A stretch of 64,000 nt of DNA, taken from a bacterium (GTDB lineage: Bacteria > Bacillota > Clostridia > Lachnospirales > Lachnospiraceae). This document shows, in pieces, positions 3,162 through 60,025 of the stretch. The stretch is from the NCBI GenBank assembly GCA_029012425.1, contig JAQXMB010000042.1:26908-90907 (forward strand), given 5' to 3'. The position numbers were made by a program, and so were the translations under genes. The notes under the pieces are model-generated. The model was given only the letters and a program-made list of their open reading frames with translations. It did not search any database and was not told the DNA's origin. Positions within the stretch are counted from its first letter, which is position 1, and each line of letters opens with the position of its first letter.

Positions 3162-3539
3162 CTACTTACGCATTTTCGGTTTAAATATCCATGCGGCAAT
3201 ATATGCAAAAATAAGCGCCGCACTCACACCGACCGCACAGGCTTCAAAGCCTCCCATAAATAGTCCAAGGAAGCCATCCCTGTCGATTGCTTCTTTCATT
3301 CCCTTCCACAATACATTACCAAATCCAAGAAGCGGAACCGAAGCTCCTGCTCCCGCCCAATCAACAAATGGCTGATACAATCCAATCGCGCCAAGTACAC
3401 AACCGGTGCATACGAGCAACACCATAATTCGACCCGGAAGCATCTTTGTTTTCTCCATCAGAATCTGTGTCAATGCACAGATTACTCCGCCAACCACAAA
3501 TGCCAATACATAGTCCATCATGCCGTTTCCTCCTGACAT
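3162..3539 (-). CDS. spoVAE: Stage V sporulation protein AE
   Basis: 125 aa membrane protein, VVGGVICALTQILMEKTKMLPGRIMVLLVCTGCVLGAIGLYQPFVDWAGAGASVPLLGFG; overlaps the end of spoVAD. Confidence 0.93.
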   Translation of the reverse strand: MSGGNGMMDYVLAFVVGGVICALTQILMEKTKMLPGRIMVLLVCTGCVLGAIGLYQPFVDWAGAGASVPLLGFGNVLWKGMKEAIDRDGFLGLFMGGFEACAVGVSAALIFAYIAAWIFKPKMRK

Positions 3540-4558
3540 TCAACATGTTCTAATACGATTCCATGAGCGATTCCCGGCACATTTTCCCCCTCATTAAAGC
3601 TGACCTGAGAGAGCAGTGCTCCGGTCGGAAGAAACAGGATCCTTTTGTATTCGCCACTTATGAGCTTCGGCAGATACCAGGCTCCAAGTGTTACGGCTGC
3701 GCATCCGCATCCGCTTCCTCCGGACTGGGTTCCCTGTGATTTGCTGTCAAAAATCTTCATTCCGCAATCCTCGTGGACGGATGTGATGTCAATTCCCTCA
3801 TCGCTTAAAAGCTTACAGAGAATCTCCTTTCCGACACTTCCTAAATCACCGGTTACAATACGGTCGTAATCACCGGGTTTACGGTTGAAATCTCTCAGAT
3901 GATTTTTGATCAGATCCATTGCAGCCGGAGCCATCGCAGCACCCATATTCTGCGCATCACGCACACCATAGTCAATGATTCTTCCGGTTGTAAATCCGGA
4001 TATCCTGACAGCGGTCTTTTGTGTACTGAGTACATATGCGCCGCTTCCGGTCACTGTCCAGGTTGCGGAAAGCGGTCTTTGGTTGGCATATTCCACAGGA
4101 AAACGAAACTGTTTCTCCGCACTTGCAAAATGGCTTGATGTGACAACAAGTACCTGATTCGCATATCCGCCACCCAGACACATTGAAGCCAGAGACAACC
4201 CTTCCCCAAGTGTTGAGCACGCTCCATACAGACCAAATAACGGTATTTCAAAATCCATCAGACCGAATGAGGTTGCAATATTCTGTCCCAGAAGGTCTCC
4301 TGCAAACACATATCGCATATCGGCAGGTGTACACCCGGCTTTACCGAGCGCTAGTGTCGCTGCCTCCTTTTGCATGCGGCTCTCGGACGCCTCCCATGTC
4401 TCTTCTCCGAATTTATCCGTGTCGCAGACCATGTCAAAATATTCAGCAAGCGGTCCTTCCCCTTCCATTTTTCCGACTACTGTTCCGGAGCTTTTGATAT
4501 AAACGGGATTTTCAAGCTTCACACTCTGCCTGCCGATTTGTTTATTTTTTTCCAACAT
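3518..4558 (-). CDS. spoVAD: Stage V sporulation protein AD
   Basis: 346 aa; thiolase-like fold sequence with GYANQVLVVTSSHFASAEKQFRFPVEYANQRPLSATWTVTGSGAYVLS. Confidence 0.95.
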   Translation of the reverse strand: MLEKNKQIGRQSVKLENPVYIKSSGTVVGKMEGEGPLAEYFDMVCDTDKFGEETWEASESRMQKEAATLALGKAGCTPADMRYVFAGDLLGQNIATSFGLMDFEIPLFGLYGACSTLGEGLSLASMCLGGGYANQVLVVTSSHFASAEKQFRFPVEYANQRPLSATWTVTGSGAYVLSTQKTAVRISGFTTGRIIDYGVRDAQNMGAAMAPAAMDLIKNHLRDFNRKPGDYDRIVTGDLGSVGKEILCKLLSDEGIDITSVHEDCGMKIFDSKSQGTQSGGSGCGCAAVTLGAWYLPKLISGEYKRILFLPTGALLSQVSFNEGENVPGIAHGIVLEHVECQEETA

Positions 4559-5478: not shown

Positions 5479-5587
5479 TTCAGTTACGGTTGGCGGTCAT
5501 GACTGTCTATTGCATTTCCCTTTCAATTACGATTGGCGGTCATGACTGTCTATTATATTTCCCTTTCAATTACGATTGGCGGTCATG
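5479..5587. repeat. 43-bp tandem direct repeat, about 2.5 units (TTTCAATTACGATTGGCGGTCATGACTGTCTATTATATTTCCC)
   Basis: GGCGGTCATG recurs at 5495, 5538 and 5581, an exact 43-bp period. The third unit runs into composite repeat copy A. Confidence 0.9.
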
Positions 5588-6081
5588 CATACACATATAG
5601 CACAGGCACGCTCTCGCTACTTGTCGCTGGCAGTGGTACATAAGTGTCCAAAATACGGACACAAAGTACCAGCCGCTCCAAAGTACCTGTTTCCTATATG
5701 TGTATCGCATTCCCTATCCACGCTACGAAAAGCTTAACAAAATATACGCTAAGCGCTGCCATGAAGGTTCCTGCCGATGCCACTGTTTATGCTGTCGGCA
5801 AGGTTCATGACAGTTCCCGTCAGCTGCGACTTTTGGCTGGCGTAGTGCGAGCGAATCGTAAGTGTTCCGCCTATCATAACTGAAAGCCGAAGACTATGTG
5901 TTCGAAGGACACATCGAGTCGAGGCTGAAGGAACAGCGAGACACCGTCAGGCAATCGGAGCAGTCTGACGGCGACACTGTCATGTCCGAAGCCGGCTCGG
6001 TTACCGACAGTTCCCATCAGCTGCGACTTTTGGCTGGCGCAGTGCGAGCGAATCGTAAGTGTTTCGCCTATCATAGCTGAA
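5581..6081. repeat. Composite structured intergenic repeat, copy A
   Basis: Shares long near-identical stretches with 25845-26283 (same strand) and 59715-59927 (opposite strand). Contains large inverted repeats and no plausible gene. Confidence 0.9.
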
Positions 6082-6132
6082 GAGACCGCGAGACACCGTC
6101 AGGCAATCGCAATAACCTGACGATGACACTGC

Positions 6133-6230
6133 CGCAGAGACGAGATGCGCCCTGCGAATCTCGCTCTGATTAGCGGTCGTCAAATCTCCGCTTGCACAAG
6201 TGCAGCGTCCATTTTCCTCGTCGCCATAAC
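6133..6230. repeat. Second structured repeat module, copy 1 (GAGACGAGATGCG...CTCGTCGCCATAAC)
   Basis: Nearly identical to 44679-44777. Confidence 0.88.
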
Positions 6231-6465
6231 ACAAAAAGAGACCTATGGATTGCGCATTCGCCATCCACAAGTCTCATCGTTTCATGCAATACCAGATGCT
6301 CATCACATCATTCTGTTGATACCGCCACACGCCTCGCGTGCCGACTACTCCCTCGTAAACTTTGCTAAGTATATCACAGCGCCTATAGCATGACAAGAGC
6401 ATTTTGCAAGATTGCGGTAGTTTTTTTCATATGCTATACTTAGCATGCAAAAAGGAGGATCTATC

Positions 6466-11073: not shown

Positions 11074-12447
11074 TTATTCATTTGAAAGCGGTTTTATTAC
11101 ACGCTTAAAGGTCAGATGCAGACAGATACTTGAAATCAGAAGCGACATGCCCTCTGCAATCGGAAAGCTCCACCAGATTAAATCTAATCCACCAATCTGC
11201 GCCAAAATATATGCCGCGGGAAGCAAAACAATCAGCTGACGGGCAACGGATACATACAAACTGTACATCCCGTTTCCGACTGCCTGGAACACCGCTCCGC
11301 ACACGATGCAGAACCATGCCATCAAAAAGTGGACTGCTATGATACGAAGTGCCGGAACACCTATCTGAAGCATATTCTCAGATGCATCAAACAGCCAGAT
11401 CAGTAACTTGTCCGGTATTGTCTCGAACACGATAAACCCAAGGAGCGTTGAGCAGAATGCTACAAGCCATCCCCACTTGATACTTCGAATCATACGCTTT
11501 TTCTTCTTTGCTCCATAATTGTAGGCAACAATCGGAATCAGACCATTATTCAGTCCGAATACCGGCATAAAGAAGAAACTTTGAAGCTTGAAATATACGC
11601 CAAAAACCGCAGCTCCGGTTGCTGATAAGCCTACTAAAATGAGGTTCATTCCATAGGTCATGACCGAACCAATCGACTGCATGACAATTGAAGGGACACC
11701 TACCTTATAGATGATACCGATAATCTCTCGATTTGGTCTGAACCCCTTAAACGACATATGTACATCGGCGTTATGCTTCTGGTTATAAATCATCGCCACG
11801 AATCCGGCAATAATCTGTCCGACAACAGTTGCCACAGCAGCTCCCGCAACGCCCATTTTCGGCATTCCAAGCAGACCAAAAATTAAGATCGGATCCAAAA
11901 TGATATTAATAATTGCACCGATCATCTGCGAAACCATGGTAAAGAAGGTTCTTCCGGTCGCCTGTAAGATTCGCTCAAAAATGAACTGCATATACAGACC
12001 AAAAGAAGCTACCATTACAATTGTCAGATACTGTACTCCCATCGTCATGATTTCTTCCGGAGCACCCTTCACCTGACTTGCATAGAACGGGCGGACCGCT
12101 ACAATACCGATGATTGCAGATACAAGATAGCTGATCAGATACAAAAACACACCATTTTCTGCTGTCTGATTTGCACGCTTAAAATTTTTCTCACCCAGCG
12201 ACTTAGATAAAAGAGAATTCACACCGACACCGGTTCCTCCGGCAATCGCAATCAACAGCATCTGAAGCGGAAATGCCAGCGAAACAGCTGTCAGTGCATT
12301 CTCACTGATTCTTGATACGAAGGAGCTGTCGACAATGTTGTACATCGCCTGCACGAGCATGGATAGCATCATCGGCAATGACATATTCATCAATAACTTG
12401 CCTTCCGGCATGACTCCCATCTTGTTTTCTTGTCTCAATTCTTCCAC
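11074..12447 (-). CDS. MATE family efflux transporter
   Basis: 457 aa multi-TM; MMLSMLVQAMYNIVDSSFVSRISENALTAVSLAFPLQMLLIAIAGGTGVGVNSLLSKSLGEK. Confidence 0.95.
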   Translation of the reverse strand: MEELRQENKMGVMPEGKLLMNMSLPMMLSMLVQAMYNIVDSSFVSRISENALTAVSLAFPLQMLLIAIAGGTGVGVNSLLSKSLGEKNFKRANQTAENGVFLYLISYLVSAIIGIVAVRPFYASQVKGAPEEIMTMGVQYLTIVMVASFGLYMQFIFERILQATGRTFFTMVSQMIGAIINIILDPILIFGLLGMPKMGVAGAAVATVVGQIIAGFVAMIYNQKHNADVHMSFKGFRPNREIIGIIYKVGVPSIVMQSIGSVMTYGMNLILVGLSATGAAVFGVYFKLQSFFFMPVFGLNNGLIPIVAYNYGAKKKKRMIRSIKWGWLVAFCSTLLGFIVFETIPDKLLIWLFDASENMLQIGVPALRIIAVHFLMAWFCIVCGAVFQAVGNGMYSLYVSVARQLIVLLPAAYILAQIGGLDLIWWSFPIAEGMSLLISSICLHLTFKRVIKPLSNE

Positions 12448-12557
12448 AATAATTCCTCCCTGCTACTTCCTGCAGTATGATTCAACCCTTTTTTCAAACA
12501 CTTTATCATACCATGAAACAGGGGAAGATGCAAGTGGACTCTGTGATTTACAACCAG

Positions 12558-13220
12558 CTACTCAAGGACTGCCGCCAAATCAGAAATCGATTTTTCACCC
12601 ATAAGTGTTTTCTCATCGTTAATAACAACCATCGGCACGCGCTCAATCTTATACTTTTCGACAAGATCCGGATATAGATTCGCATCAATCATAGTAGCCG
12701 TGAGCTTCGGACTCATAGCAGCAAGATGCTGTGCTCCGATAACGGTTGCAGCACAGTGATGACATGCCAAAGAGACAAATACTTTTATCTCGGAATTCTT
12801 TTTCAGCTTCCCGATCTTCTTCTGACTCCACTTATCGACCTCCTGGCCGGGGCCTGCCGCATTATAGCAGCCAAGAATAAACGAATTCATTTCCTTGCCA
12901 CCCGGAACGCCAAAAAAAGCGACTCCTATGTATTCACCATTCTTATAAAATCCCATGGCAGGTGTGCGGCCTTCGGGATCAAAATCAGCCTCTGTCGAAG
13001 GATTTTCTCCCTTATCGTAAATCGAGACACGAATATGCTCACCCAGAGTTTCTACATCAAACAAGAGTGAAATTAACTCTTTACTCTTTTCCTCCGCCGG
13101 ATCTACAACGGCAACAATCTCTAAATCCTCGGTGAGCTTCTCAAAAACGCCCTTAATCTGAAGACGCAATTCATCATCCAACAAATTACTTGTCCTCGGA
13201 GCATCTGAATAATTTCCCAT
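12558..13220 (-). CDS. Thioredoxin-fold protein resembling the N-terminal (NTD) region of AhpF / protein disulfide oxidoreductase
   Basis: Start MGNYSDAPRTSNLLDD at 13220; internal VSLACHHCAATVIGAQHLAAMSPKLTATMIDANLYPDLVEKYKIERVPMVVIND. Confidence 0.85.
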   Translation of the reverse strand: MGNYSDAPRTSNLLDDELRLQIKGVFEKLTEDLEIVAVVDPAEEKSKELISLLFDVETLGEHIRVSIYDKGENPSTEADFDPEGRTPAMGFYKNGEYIGVAFFGVPGGKEMNSFILGCYNAAGPGQEVDKWSQKKIGKLKKNSEIKVFVSLACHHCAATVIGAQHLAAMSPKLTATMIDANLYPDLVEKYKIERVPMVVINDEKTLMGEKSISDLAAVLE

Positions 13221-13246
13221 GAGTACCTCCTTTATCGTATGTGTGA

Positions 13247-13810
13247 CTACAGCATTCCTACAAGATCCAGACTCGGCTTTAATGTCTCTGCACCGGGTTT
13301 CCATTTTGCAGGACATACCTGATCGCCATGTTCACGGACAAACTGTGCTGCCTGTAATTTTCGGAGCAGCTCTTCCGCATTTCGCCCGATTCCCATATTG
13401 TGAATCTCATATGCCTGAATCACACCATCAGGGTCAACAATAAAGGTACCGCGCAGAGCCTGTCCGGCATCCTCCACCAAAACATCGAACTGACGAGACA
13501 GATTCCATGCTGCATCTGAGAGCATCGGATACTTTATTTTTTTGATGGTATCAGAAGCATCTGCCCATGCTTTATGTACAAAATGGCTGTCTGTTGAAAC
13601 AGAATAAATCTCGCATCCGGCTTCCTTGAATTCCTCGTAATGATCTGCTAAATCCCCAAGCTCGGTCGGACATACAAAAGTAAAATCAGCCGGATAAAAG
13701 AAGAATATCTTCCAACTTCCTTTTGCCGACTGGTCGGTCACTGTAATAAACTCTCCATTCTGATAAGCCTCCACCCGGAAGGGCTCAATTTTTTTCTCAA
13801 TGTAACTCAT
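13247..13810 (-). CDS. ahpC: Alkyl hydroperoxide reductase C (2-Cys peroxiredoxin)
   Basis: FFFYPADFTFVCPTELGDLADHYEEF...FIVDPDGVIQAYEIHNMGIGRNAEELLRKLQAAQFV..VCPAKWKPG. Confidence 0.96.
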   Translation of the reverse strand: MSYIEKKIEPFRVEAYQNGEFITVTDQSAKGSWKIFFFYPADFTFVCPTELGDLADHYEEFKEAGCEIYSVSTDSHFVHKAWADASDTIKKIKYPMLSDAAWNLSRQFDVLVEDAGQALRGTFIVDPDGVIQAYEIHNMGIGRNAEELLRKLQAAQFVREHGDQVCPAKWKPGAETLKPSLDLVGML

Positions 13811-14003
13811 ATGCTTCTCCTTTCTAATAACCTGATACTTATATAATCTTACAGAATATAAAATAAATCAATGATAATTTGTCTATCTTTTTTATCATTT
13901 TATTTATTTTGTCTATTTTTCTTTATGTGATACTTTGCTATAATTTTTATAGATAGAACGCGGGGGTTCTAGCATTTAATTCAAACACAGGAGGGTACTT
14001 ATT

Positions 14004-14195
14004 ATGGCAAAAGATGGATTAGGCATCACCAACATGAACGGTGATACAACCGATGAGAACAAGACATGCGGACTTCAGGATATGAACTGTCTGGCTGGTC
14101 AGGAAGTAAAAGAGCATAGCTTAAACAACATGAACGGTGATTCCGGTGATGACGACAAGAGTTGTGGTCTTCAGGATATGAACTGTGTTCAGTAA
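14004..14195 (+). CDS. 63-aa protein of unknown function with a duplicated NMNGD..D..K.CGLQDMNC motif
   Basis: RBS AGGAGGG before ATG; two near-identical 20-aa blocks; followed by a terminator at 14217-14242. Confidence 0.85.
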   Translation: MAKDGLGITNMNGDTTDENKTCGLQDMNCLAGQEVKEHSLNNMNGDSGDDDKSCGLQDMNCVQ

Positions 14196-14216
14196 TTTCA
14201 TTTTTGAATAGTCAAA

Positions 14217-14242
14217 AAGAACCACTTTTGTGGTTCTTTTTC
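14217..14242 (+). terminator. Terminator AAGAACCACTTTTGTGGTTCTTTTTCTTT
   Basis: Perfect stem plus T-tract. Confidence 0.9.
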
Positions 14243-14269
14243 TTTCTATTCGCGCTTTCTTTGCTATTT

Positions 14270-14743
14270 CTACAGACAAGTCCAGATATAATAGATCACT
14301 CCAAGTATCCAGCTCGTAAAAATTCCATATAATATGACAGGTCCACAGATTGTAAAAATCTTGGCGCCGCATCCAAAGACATTTCCCTCGCTTCCGCGAA
14401 ATTCAATTGCCGGTGCAGCCACAGAGTTTGCAAATCCGGTAATCGGTACAAGTGCACCCGCTCCACCCCATTTTGCAAAGGTCGGATAAATATTCAGACC
14501 CGTTAGGAGTACGCTTAACAATACGAGTATGAGTGTACACCACATGGGTGCCATCTCTTCATCTGCTCCACATGACTTTGCAATTGCGATGATTGCTTGT
14601 CCAATCGTACAGATAACGCCTCCCACGATAAATGCCTTCAGCATGTTTCCACCCAGACTGTAGGTCGGTGTCACCTGCTTGACATATTCATTATACTCCT
14701 GCTGCTGTCTAAGCTTCTGCTCCGGAATCCGATCCTGTTTCAT
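14270..14743 (-). CDS. spoVAC: Stage V sporulation protein AC
   Basis: 157 aa; AFIVGGVICTIGQAI...LTGLNIYPTFAKWGGAGALVPITGFANSVAAPAIEFRGSEGNVFGCGAKIF. Confidence 0.95.
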   Translation of the reverse strand: MKQDRIPEQKLRQQQEYNEYVKQVTPTYSLGGNMLKAFIVGGVICTIGQAIIAIAKSCGADEEMAPMWCTLILVLLSVLLTGLNIYPTFAKWGGAGALVPITGFANSVAAPAIEFRGSEGNVFGCGAKIFTICGPVILYGIFTSWILGVIYYIWTCL

Positions 14744-15083
14744 ATGACATTACTCCTTTTTCTATTGCCGATTGGCTCATGTTTTCCACATAAGCATATG
14801 TTTTTTTCACATTTTTATTCTTTGGTGTTAACATTTTGTCACTGTCCTCCGATATATGTTTCATCTGATACATATATGTGCACAGAAAACAGTATCTATT
14901 CAAAGTCAGGATATTTTCAAAAATACTTTACTCTGAATAGTTGCAAAGAGAATAACAGGATGAACCACGGACGGCAAATGGATTTGAAAAAGGGAGTTTT
15001 TCTGATTCTTCGCTGTCTTTTATTTTGTTTTGTAGGGAAACAATTCATCATAAACAGGTGTCCTTGAAAAAAGGAGCATTGTT

Positions 15084-16169
15084 ATGATCATTCAATCTGG
15101 TAATGTTGGAATGAGCGCAAAAAGAAGCTATTATTCACACTCATATTCCAATCAGTCTCTTCAGGTGTGGGGAAAAGGCTCTGCGCTCATCTCTCCCACC
15201 TTAGCCGGTATCACAACGGCCACGGACAAACAAAAAAATGCCTCGCAGAGTTCTTCTGCAAAGCATGCAATTTATGGCGATGGCAATAACAGCAATGATT
15301 TTTTCACAGAGCTGCAGAATCGTTACAAACCGAGTCAAAAGGTCAGCCGCCCCTTACGCACAGGGTCTTCGGATTCACTCAAGGACTTGCAAAAGATACG
15401 CCAGCGCACATTAAGCTATATTCTGGATTTACTGTTCTCAAAGGAGCGGCGATGGGATTATAGCAGCGCACAAAATCTCCCAAGTGACAGCACAGAAAAC
15501 AACTTTGGCGGTCAGTATACAGCCGAATTCTATTATGAGGAAAATGAGAATGTCAGTTTCTCCACGGAAGGTATGGTAAAGACCTCGGACGGCAAAGAAA
15601 TCAGCTTTCAGCTCGACCTGACACTGAGCAGATCGTTTGTACAGTACTCTCGTGAGGCAATTGATTTTGGTGCACCCCGCATGATGGATCCGCTTGTTAT
15701 CAATCTGGATTCACCGTCTGCCAATGTAAGCGATCAGAAATTCTATTTTGATCTCGACGGTGATGGTCACGAGGAATCTATTTCTTCACTTGGTGCAGGA
15801 AGCGGTTTTCTTGCTTTGGACAAAAACGGAGATGGTATCATTAATGATGGAAGTGAATTATTCGGAACCAAAAGCGGCAATGGCTTTGAGGATTTATCTG
15901 CATTTGATCTTGATAAAAACGGATGGATCGATGAAGCAGATGATATCTTCGACAAGCTTCTCGTCTGGACGAAGGATGAAAATGGCAACGACAAGCTGAT
16001 TGATCTTAAAAAAGCAGGTGTGGGCGCCATCTATCTCGGAGCTGCCGACACGCAGTTTTCTTTAAACGACACCGGCAACAGAACGAATGCCTTGATTCAA
16101 AAAAGCGGTATTTTTCTGTACGAAAGCGGGCGCTCAGGCACGATACAGCAGGTGGATTTAGCCACCTGA
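15084..16169 (+). CDS. Protein with EF-hand/dockerin-like Ca2+-binding loops
   Basis: FDLDGDGHEE, LDKNGDGIINDGSELFG, DLDKNGWIDEADD and KDENGND loops in the C-terminal half. Confidence 0.75.
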   Translation: MIIQSGNVGMSAKRSYYSHSYSNQSLQVWGKGSALISPTLAGITTATDKQKNASQSSSAKHAIYGDGNNSNDFFTELQNRYKPSQKVSRPLRTGSSDSLKDLQKIRQRTLSYILDLLFSKERRWDYSSAQNLPSDSTENNFGGQYTAEFYYEENENVSFSTEGMVKTSDGKEISFQLDLTLSRSFVQYSREAIDFGAPRMMDPLVINLDSPSANVSDQKFYFDLDGDGHEESISSLGAGSGFLALDKNGDGIINDGSELFGTKSGNGFEDLSAFDLDKNGWIDEADDIFDKLLVWTKDENGNDKLIDLKKAGVGAIYLGAADTQFSLNDTGNRTNALIQKSGIFLYESGRSGTIQQVDLAT

Positions 16170-25788: not shown

Positions 25789-25844
25789 TTCTATATTATT
25801 ATTCTCCTTCTTTCCTATCGTACCCCATCAACTTACTTTTTGGG

Positions 25845-26284
25845 GTCATGCGTACACATATAGCGCAGGCACGCTCGCGCTACTTGTCGCTGGCAGTGGT
25901 ACATAAGCGCCCAAAATACGGACGCAAAGTACCAGCCGCTCCAAAGTACCTGCTGGATATATGTGTATCGCATTCCCTGTCCACGCTACGAAAAGCTTGA
26001 CAAGGTCAGTGCCCGCGCTTCCATGAAGATTACTGCCAATGCCATTATTTACGCTGCCGGCAAGGTTTATGGCAGTTCCCATCAGCAGCGACATTTGTCT
26101 GGCGCAGCGCGAGCGTATCGTAAATGTTCCGCCTGGCATATCTGAAAGCCGAAGACTATTTGTGCGTAGGACAAATCGAGTCGAGGCTGAAGGAACAGTG
26201 AGACACCGACAGGCAACCGGAGCAGGTGATGGGATGCTGCCATGATATTGCCGGCAAGGTTTGTGGCAGTTCCCATCAGGTACT
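25845..26284. repeat. Composite structured intergenic repeat, copy B
   Basis: Collinear with copy A (5581 onward): GGTCATGCGTACACATATAGCGCAGGCACGCTCGCGCTACTTGTCGCTGGCAGTGGTACATAAG... Confidence 0.9.
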
Positions 26285-43284: not shown

Positions 43285-44646
43285 TTAATCTTCTTGCGCG
43301 AGTGCTGCCTTGATCATAATCGCACACTCCACGCGCTTTTTCTGCAGTGCACATCCGATGTCATATGCATCGTGAATGCTGCCATGGAAATTGTAGGAAT
43401 TGGCAGCACAGCCGCCGCTGCAGTAAAATCTTGCAAAACAATTTCTGCACTTTTCCTTGGAATAAACATTACAGCTTTTGAACTCGTCACAAATCTGCGG
43501 ATGCTTAATTCCTTCAAATACATTTCCAAGATAAAACTTTTCATTGCCAACAAACTGATGGCAAGGATAGAGGTCACCCCAGGGTGTAACTGCCAAATAC
43601 TCCGTACCTGAACCGCAACCCGACAAGCGTTTTGCCACGCAAGGGCCTCCCTCCAAATCTATCATAAAATGGAAAAAATTAAAATCCTCTCCAGTTTTAT
43701 GTCTGCGAATCATCTCCTTGGCGAGTGCATCATACTCGTCAAACAACGCCAGCAAATCCTCCTCCCGGATTGCATAGTCGGCTGTATCCGGCGCGACAAC
43801 CGGCTCTACAGAAATCTGCTTAAATCCCAAATCTGCCATATGCAATACATCTTTTGCAAAATCGAGATTGTGATGTGTGAAGGTTCCTCTCACATAGTAG
43901 CGCTCCTGATTTCTGCTGTCAGCGAATTTCTGATATTTCGGAACGACCAGATCATAGCTTCCGGAGCCATTAGGGAACGGACGCATTCTGTCATGTACCT
44001 CCGGTCTTCCGTCAATGCTCAGTACGACATTATCCATCTCACGGTTTGCGAACTCCATGATATCATCATTCAATAGTACGCCGTTTGTTGTGAGCGTAAA
44101 ACGGAATTTCTTATTGAATTCCTCTTCCTTGCTTCTTCCATACGCGACCAGATCTTTTACAACCTGGAAATTAAGTGTCGGCTCTCCGCCAAAAAAATCT
44201 ACTTCTAAGTTTCTTCGATTTCCTGATCCTGCAATCAGAAAGTCTAATGCTGCCTTGCCTACCTCATATGTCATCAGCTCTCGTTTTCCATGATACTCGC
44301 CCTCTTCTGCAAAACAGTACTTGCAGGCAAGATTACAGTCATGCGCAATGTGAAGGCAAAGCGCTTTGACAACGGTGGGGCGGTTTTTACCGAGCTCCTG
44401 TATATAATCCTCGTAGCCATCCGGTGTGAATAACTCTTTCGCATCAATCAGCTCTTTTACCTCGTCAAGAGCTTCCTTCAGCTCCGAGACATCATAGGTT
44501 TTACCAAGCTTGTCCACAATTTCTTCCGGTGTATGCGATTCGTAGAGTGCGATCACATCATACATGATCTGATCGACCACATGGATTGCCCCGCTGTTCA
44601 CATCCAGCACAATATTGTAGCCATTGTTCTGATACTGGTGAACCAC
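43285..44646 (-). CDS. scfB: Radical SAM SCIFF peptide maturase
   Basis: LCLHIAHDCNLACKYCFAEEGEYHGKRELMTYEVGK...DFFGGEPTLNF and C-terminal SPASM Cys cluster; precursor peptide adjacent. Confidence 0.95.
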   Translation of the reverse strand: MVHQYQNNGYNIVLDVNSGAIHVVDQIMYDVIALYESHTPEEIVDKLGKTYDVSELKEALDEVKELIDAKELFTPDGYEDYIQELGKNRPTVVKALCLHIAHDCNLACKYCFAEEGEYHGKRELMTYEVGKAALDFLIAGSGNRRNLEVDFFGGEPTLNFQVVKDLVAYGRSKEEEFNKKFRFTLTTNGVLLNDDIMEFANREMDNVVLSIDGRPEVHDRMRPFPNGSGSYDLVVPKYQKFADSRNQERYYVRGTFTHHNLDFAKDVLHMADLGFKQISVEPVVAPDTADYAIREEDLLALFDEYDALAKEMIRRHKTGEDFNFFHFMIDLEGGPCVAKRLSGCGSGTEYLAVTPWGDLYPCHQFVGNEKFYLGNVFEGIKHPQICDEFKSCNVYSKEKCRNCFARFYCSGGCAANSYNFHGSIHDAYDIGCALQKKRVECAIMIKAALAQED

Positions 44647-44678: not shown

Positions 44679-44777
44679 GCACAGAGACGAGATACGCACT
44701 GCGAATCTCGCTCTGATTTGCGCTCGTTAAACATCCGCTTGCACAAGTGCAGCGTCCATGTTCCTCGTCGCCATAAC
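44679..44777. repeat. Second structured repeat module, copy 2
   Basis: Nearly identical to 6133-6230; lies between scfA and scfB. Confidence 0.88.
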
Positions 44778-44847
44778 AAATGACCGCTTGCAATGCAAAC
44801 GGTCGTCTGTACTTATTGTACTCATTCATTTCTATGCAAAATAATTA

Positions 44848-44991
44848 TTATTTGCACTGCTCGCAGGTCTGATTTCCTACGGTACAAGAAGTCTTGCAAG
44901 CTGACTGACAAGAGGTCTGGCACTCACCGCAGCCGCCTTTTTTAACTGTGTTCTGAAGCTTTCTTGTATTCAAAGTCTTTACATGTTTCAT
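44848..44991 (-). CDS. scfA: SCIFF ranthipeptide precursor (47 aa, seven Cys)
   Basis: MKHVKTLNTRKLQNTVKKGGCGECQTSCQSACKTSCTVGNQTCEQCK*; RBS AAAGGAG. Not in ORF track (too short). Confidence 0.96.
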   Translation of the reverse strand: MKHVKTLNTRKLQNTVKKGGCGECQTSCQSACKTSCTVGNQTCEQCK

Positions 44992-59659: not shown

Positions 59660-60025
59660 ACCAAACCGTTCTATTTATGCTGTCACAGTGGAAGCCGGCA
59701 GAGTCTGTGGCAGTTCGGTAGGTTCCTAATCGCACACATAGTCTTCGGCTTTCAGCTATGATAGGTGAAACACTTACACTTCGCTCGCACTGCGCCAGAC
59801 AAATGTCGCCGCTGACGGGAACTGCCACGAACCTTGCCGGCAGTGTAAATAGTGACACCGACAGTATCCCCTTTATGGCAGCTCGTAGCGTGGATAGGGA
59901 ATGCGATATATGTGTACGCATGACCGCGCCCAGTAGCCTGATGGGGCAGACACCGGCAGGCAACCGGAGCAGTCTGATGGTGACACTGCCACAGACGATG
60001 CCGGCAAGGTTACCGGCATTATTCC
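59660..60025. repeat. Composite structured intergenic repeat, copy C (rearranged; core on - strand, tail module on + strand)
   Basis: Reverse complement of 59715-59927 aligns to copies A/B but lacks the large internal hairpin; 59951-59995 (GACACCGGCAGGCAACCGGAGCAGTCTGATGGTGACACTG) aligns in the opposite orientation. Confidence 0.85.

Follow-up and report, generated by a model that had tools for sequence, protein, structure and literature searches.

In a 64,000-nucleotide stretch of DNA from a Lachnospiraceae bacterium (contig JAQXMB010000042.1, positions 26,908 to 90,907 of the forward strand; hereinafter, the window), we identified a genuine gene for a 63-amino acid protein that consists of four 16-residue units, belongs to a family in which cysteines flank a unit on both sides or not at all, and is linked to ahpC in three genera. 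Members with such cysteine pairs are hereinafter called C-type, and those in which Tyr or Phe and Gly or Ala occupy these positions, Y-type. The gene neighborhoods and the covariation of residues lead us to propose, tentatively and with a probability of about 0.4, that the C-type protein serves a split AhpC/AhpF system as a multi-dithiol partner.

A small gene under purifying selection

The open reading frame was found at 14004-14195 with exactly the 63-residue sequence given in the initial annotation, within a draft genome of 2.53 Mb in 172 contigs that is ~88% complete. The ribosome-binding site and the terminator that had been assigned to the gene were both recovered: GGAGGG is located eight bases 5' of the ATG, and the gene is followed by a 12-bp stem with T-runs flanking both sides, one such structure being observed against 0.1 expected from shuffled sequences. 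The features of the region are as follows.

12558..13220, minus strand: ahpFN, a stand-alone AhpF N-domain-like gene, two thioredoxin folds, CHHC (TIGR03143 match confined to positions 343-553 of 555)
13247..13810, minus strand: ahpC, two-Cys peroxiredoxin (FVCPTE ... DQVCPAKW), divergent neighbor (TIGR03137 equivalog, 303.9 bits)
13811..14003, no strand: divergent intergenic region between the peptide gene and ahpC (genus alignment)
13991..13996, plus strand: Shine-Dalgarno sequence GGAGGG (sequence)
14004..14195, plus strand: 63-aa four-unit tandem-repeat protein, C-type (open reading frame; orthologues; dN/dS 0.03-0.20)
14019..14042, plus strand: unit 1 core L-GITNMN-G, residues 6-13 (16-residue period)
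14067..14090, plus strand: unit 2 core C-GLQDMN-C, residues 22-29 (16-residue period)
14115..14138, plus strand: unit 3 core H-SLNNMN-G, residues 38-45 (16-residue period)
14163..14186, plus strand: unit 4 core C-GLQDMN-C, residues 54-61 (16-residue period)
14214..14241, plus strand: terminator-like stem-loop, common to the convergent peptide and spoVAC genes (stem-loop scan)

Comparison with five congeners gives approximately 9, 10 and 32 differences at the first, second and third codon positions, respectively, and dN/dS is 0.03-0.20 for the congener pairs with unsaturated dS, indicating that the open reading frame encodes a protein under purifying selection. Upstream of it, AGGAGGG is kept across congeners in the alignment, with variable edges in G299 and at locus L034, and the intergenic region contains blocks conserved in the genus, including TTTTATCATTTT and TTGTCTAT. 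An operator for PerR or another regulator was considered here and rejected: the blocks are conserved, but no known box was assigned to them. A scan for consensus promoters gave no excess over chance, and no Rfam match was found within 12400-15200. The TAGAAC-gcgggg-GTTCTA hairpin that had been placed in the 5' UTR is present at 13954-13971 but is species-specific; because the aligned orthologues lack it and it folds no better than shuffled sequences (z -0.93), we do not consider it a supported regulatory element. Elsewhere in the window, there are dispersed repeats (5561-6131, 25824-26241 and 59933-59988; 6135-6231 and 44682-44778) that are 71-92% identical and apparently intergenic.

Repeat organization and two types of units

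The four units of the window protein follow an exact 16-residue period and share the core X-[GS][LI]x[ND]MN-X', with C-x6-C in units 2 and 4 only and, accordingly, four cysteines in total. The initial annotation had described two near-identical blocks of 20 residues, each with C-x6-C. Such a duplication is indeed discernible at the DNA level as a 68-nt direct repeat with 79% identity and 96-nt spacing, but each 32-residue copy comprises two 16-residue units, so that the C-x6-C motifs belong to two of four 16-residue units rather than to two 20-residue blocks.

Alignment of eleven members, all from draft genomes, shows that in a C-type unit X and X' are both Cys, position 5 is usually Asp and the linkers are acidic, whereas in a Y-type unit X is Tyr or Phe, X' is Gly or Ala and position 5 is usually Asn; [ND]MN is kept in both. 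In G281, the unit L-GLNNMN-G is followed by three copies of C-GLNDMN-C, and in G202 the units are T-GWANLN-G, C-AITDMN-C, C-GITDMN-C and C-SITNMN-C, with a period of 16 in each case. The same period is seen in G271 (L-SINNMN-G, Y-GLNNMN-G, Y-RLNNIN-G and Y-SIDNMC-G) and in the G734 member, albeit with a 3-residue deletion and one worn unit, and all four units of G299 are Y-type (Y-SITNMN-A, F-SLQNMN-G, Y-TLTNMN-G and Y-SLTDMN-G). Among 25 distinct units, Cys is found at both X and X' in 6, at neither in 19 and in a mixed state in none (Fisher p 5.6e-6), and at position 5 five of the 6 units with Cys have Asp, as against Asn in 18 of the 19 without (p 6.5e-4), although these p-values overstate the evidence given that units of one protein or of sister species are kin. 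The all-or-none pairing of the cysteines implies that the ends of the loop touch each other or act jointly. The net charge differs as well, from -7 to -15 in the C-type and from -1 to +3 in the Y-type. Inspection revealed neither a signal peptide nor a leader, the repeats starting at residue 5-10 in all members, and AlphaFold yielded no fold (two low-confidence models with mean pLDDT of 53.8 and 49.3).

Conceivably, the protein is a repeat scaffold or multivalent binder in which each 16-residue unit is a linear motif or a turn that can be closed either by Cys-Cys or by Tyr-Gly, with no redox involved. The exact period, which holds even between members at 22-35% identity, the existence of the Y-type without cysteines, the [ND]MN signature common to both types and the low-confidence models, which fit a flexible chain, are all compatible with such a role; we nevertheless consider it unlikely as the full explanation, and it leaves unaccounted for why the Cys pairs track AhpC and the stand-alone AhpF N-domain (see below). 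Since Y-type relatives lack Cys pairs, the repeat must also serve a thiol-independent role. This role of the 16-residue repeat, probably in binding or as a scaffold, would be the older one, with the Cys pairs representing an AhpC-linked specialization.

Distribution

The peptide is present in 7 of the 10 genomes of the genus and, outside it, in three further Lachnospiraceae genera and one other family of Clostridia. A profile search of a 397-genome sample of the family retrieved only two congeners, G202, G281 and G271, together with one weak match (E 0.001) within a 708-residue open frame; a nucleotide pattern spanning two neighboring units recovered the same genomes plus chance matches, and a class-wide pattern search added G734, which belongs to a different family. 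Weak profile matches with E > 0.001, which were partly inspected, were judged not to be relatives. The gene of G271 is part of an arsR-acr3-Y-type peptide-arsD-arsA-arsC-like operon (L035:8070-12416), apparently inside an integrative element, and the Y-type gene of G734 precedes an HD-GYP gene and a pair of EncFtn and encapsulin genes (L052:9463-12221).

The statement of the initial annotation that the protein belongs to no known family stands. The window protein showed no match to Pfam or NCBIfam at E<=0.1 and no meaningful match in PHROG, PADLOC or PDB sequences, its relatives gave weak, chance-level matches only, and literature searches turned up no description of the family. We looked for a match to a characterized family and for lack of conservation in relatives, either of which had been named as contradicting the annotation, and saw neither, the peptide being conserved in relatives. 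A phage or plasmid origin was also rejected: tblastn searches of plasmids and phages returned nothing or unrelated FtsK-type chance matches, viral contigs scanned with profiles and patterns gave nothing beyond chance matches, and a match of the G299 member alone to phrog_10701 (E 4e-4, 15 residues) did not hold up. To judge from these searches, the peptide is a rare, undescribed bacterial repeat protein outside the catalogued families.

Linkage to ahpC

The divergent neighbor had been correctly recognized as ahpC (304 bits against the TIGR03137 cut-off of 272 bits, which was used for all AhpC calls). AhpC is encoded in all eight C-type genomes, and was detected in none of the three Y-type genomes and none of the three congeners in which the peptide was not found, G299 and G300 being incomplete drafts. 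With the family background rate of 56 of 299 genomes, the probability that AhpC is found in all three C-type genera by chance is ~0.006; as the link may go back to a single ancestral module, the eight genomes should not be counted as independent events.

In six species of the genus, the peptide gene is the divergent neighbor of ahpC. The G202 locus reads ahpC, ahpFN, glpP, glpK, glpF, a GlpO/GlpA-like FAD protein, a second FAD reductase, a DUF1667-like gene and the peptide gene (glpP, glpF and DUF1667 being named by inspection). The same array, from ahpC to DUF1667, reaches the end of contig C34 in G281, and the peptide follows on C19, the last 55 bases of C34 exactly matching the first 55 of C19; a tandem duplication of ~100 bp lies at this assembly break (end of L163, start of L036), between the DUF1667-like and peptide genes. 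In G299, which belongs to the same genus as the window, the orthologous site beside spoVAC is devoid of ahpC-ahpFN and the peptide is entirely Y-type. No peptide was found within 1.5 kb of 28 further Lachnospiraceae ahpC loci. In phylogenetic analysis, the AhpCs from C-type genomes comprised a single clade (89/79; 90% of bootstrap trees), to which two loci with a fused AhpF are sister.

The gene on the other side is the SpoVAC-like gene at 14270-14743 (minus strand), which scores below the TIGR02838 cut-off and has no adjacent spoVAD or spoVAEb; another spoVA-like pair seems to be present at 3162-4558. A sporulation or spore-coat role suggested by this neighbor, which is convergent in the window, G150, G302, G305, G306 and G299, is very improbable. 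The peptide gene and spoVAC converge and have no promoter in common, and spoVAC is located elsewhere in G281, G271 and G734, was not found in G202 and is displaced by ~4.5 kb in G303, where the ahpC link is retained. We rejected a spore function on these grounds: the synteny with spoVAC breaks while the link with ahpC persists in the C-type genomes.

A split AhpF

A typical AhpF consists of a thioredoxin reductase (TrxR)-like FAD/NAD(P)H domain fused to an N-domain with two thioredoxin folds, and the N-domain carries electrons between the TrxR-like domain and AhpC (PMC8945050). The ahpFN gene of the window is missing the FAD/NAD(P)H domain. At all readable C-type loci (that of G303 is cut at the contig end), the gene after ahpC encodes the AhpF N-domain alone, with 217-241 aa and CHHC, whereas at the other Lachnospiraceae ahpC loci nearly all readable next genes encode a fused flavoprotein of at least 390 aa; the association of the C-type peptide with the stand-alone N-domain is exclusive. 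In the C-type genomes, positions ~331-553 of TIGR03143 are matched beside ahpC and positions ~1-317 by a separate gene elsewhere. None of the ten genomes encodes a whole TIGR03143 protein, and most of the ten have a separate, unlinked TrxR-like gene of ~310 aa. A profile search detected no AhpF N-domain in G299, G304, G271 and G734. The single AhpC clade and the split AhpF point to one inherited module in which the peptide was kept nearby while the gene order was altered. In this module, the reductase domain of AhpF apparently was either lost or absent from the outset.

Possible functions of the C-type protein

Under the proposed reading, the C-type protein would be a small, cytoplasmic, flexible multi-dithiol protein in which each C-GLxDMN-C unit toggles between the dithiol form and a disulfide within the unit that closes a short loop. 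The peptide would hand electrons to AhpC and to the reductase-less AhpF N-domain, or else take oxidation from both, and a thioredoxin-type reductase with a gene elsewhere would return it to the reduced state; disulfide cycling, electron transfer and its direction are what we infer for the C-type peptide. A more specific and rather doubtful possibility is that an AhpC with a free N-domain and an unlinked reductase relies on the peptide as its dedicated electron carrier or thiol reservoir, and that the presence of AhpC determines which of two interchangeable closures, Tyr-Gly or Cys-Cys, is used. Genetic linkage to ahpC, as expected of a thiol reductant, is observed in three genera, but the thioredoxin or AhpD fold with CxxC is not (no profile match, C-x6-C, low-confidence models), and the peptide is therefore not a member of the AhpF N-domain or AhpD families. 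The usual thiol carriers use C-x2-C, so the C-x6-C of the peptide counts against a role as a thiol partner, as do the lack of a fold in the AlphaFold models and the fact that most AhpC-bearing Lachnospiraceae do without the peptide. Acidic linkers and an Asp within the loop can be expected to shift the thiol pKa upward and would fit a metal site at least equally well.

Metal binding is the nearest rival to the thiol-partner reading, possible even if not likely: the C-x3-D-x2-C loops and acidic linkers would hold soft or Fenton-active Fe, Cu, Zn or As, limiting peroxide damage beside AhpC. Consistent with this are the Asp at position 5 in 5 of 6 Cys units as compared to 1 of the 19 others, the acidity of the C-type, the placement of the G271 gene between acr3 and arsD in an arsenic operon, and the location of the G734 gene ~1.4 kb from the encapsulin/EncFtn pair. 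However, the arsenic- and encapsulin-associated relatives are precisely those without Cys pairs, the window protein has only four cysteines, and neither Pfam and NCBIfam nor further profile searches gave a match to a metallothionein or metallochaperone family.

The initial annotation also offered the protein as a candidate RiPP precursor, which did not fare well. In such a ranthipeptide-like scheme, which is weakly supported and in our estimate quite improbable, a radical-SAM enzyme would crosslink the Cys-x3-Asp of the C-type units. C-GLQ-D (twice in the window protein), C-GLN-D, C-GLT-D and C-AIT-D match the CX3D motif, which is the one used by PapB (PMC9413430). Five of the six distinct Cys units have the Asp, the Cys and Asp co-vary, and the repeats resemble multiple cores. 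On the other side, the repeat cores begin at residue 5-10 in every member (residue 6 in the window protein), which leaves no leader; the second Cys of the pair plays no part in CX3D; and the units are conserved rather than diversified. Conserved neighbors were checked for maturases as the annotation had advised: neither inspection nor partial profile scans revealed a radical-SAM, YcaO, ATP-grasp, lanthionine synthetase or dedicated exporter gene beside loci L035, L036, L037, L038, L052, L053 and L163, and a SPASM search of the window genome (G000), G202 and G281 showed that the only SPASM type common to these three C-type genera is SCIFF-like, the window copy of which has its own substrate.

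That maturase, named by inspection from a SPASM match, is encoded at 43285-44646 (minus strand), and the SCIFF peptide MKHVKTLNTRKLQNTVKKGGCGECQTSCQSACKTSCTVGNQTCEQCK, likewise named by inspection, at 44848-44991 (minus strand) of the same window. Elsewhere in the window genome (L161, contig C20), adjacent radical-SAM genes of 451 and 313 aa are accompanied by a small opposite-strand open reading frame that ends in DDWNWTNSGWNNW and reaches the end of the fetched stretch, a possible aromatic-rich RiPP cluster.

In gut anaerobes, AhpF and a small number of substitutes are known to supply AhpC with electrons. The joint occurrence of an uncatalogued repeat protein and an AhpF N-domain devoid of the reductase suggests an additional component. 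The switch between Cys-Cys and Tyr-Gly, tracking the gain and loss of AhpC, amounts to a natural experiment that predicts which members need thiols. Should the protein bind metal instead, it would be a new peroxide-linked metal peptide.

Comparison with known systems

Like bacterial metallothioneins and other Cys-rich metal-binding peptides, the C-type protein is small and acidic and has paired cysteines; it differs from them in the low number of cysteines, the regular 16-residue repeat, the lack of a profile match and the existence of Cys-less relatives. With PapA/freyrasin and other CX3D ranthipeptide precursors it shares small size and repeated Cys-x3-Asp, but it has neither a leader nor a linked radical-SAM/SPASM maturase, a second Cys follows three residues past the Asp, and some relatives have no Cys pair. 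The SCIFF peptide, with six cysteines in forty-five residues, is also a small Cys-containing peptide of Clostridia, yet it is unrelated in sequence to the repeat peptide and is served by its own maturase. The AhpF N-terminal domain, AhpD and the AhpF-AhpC system resemble the peptide in being encoded with AhpC, in the dithiol groups and in the expected, for the peptide, action on the AhpC redox cycle. Unlike these proteins, the peptide has no thioredoxin or AhpD fold and no CxxC, being built instead of 16-residue repeats, and because the AhpF N-domain is separately encoded next door, the peptide would be an addition to this system rather than a substitute for one of its parts.
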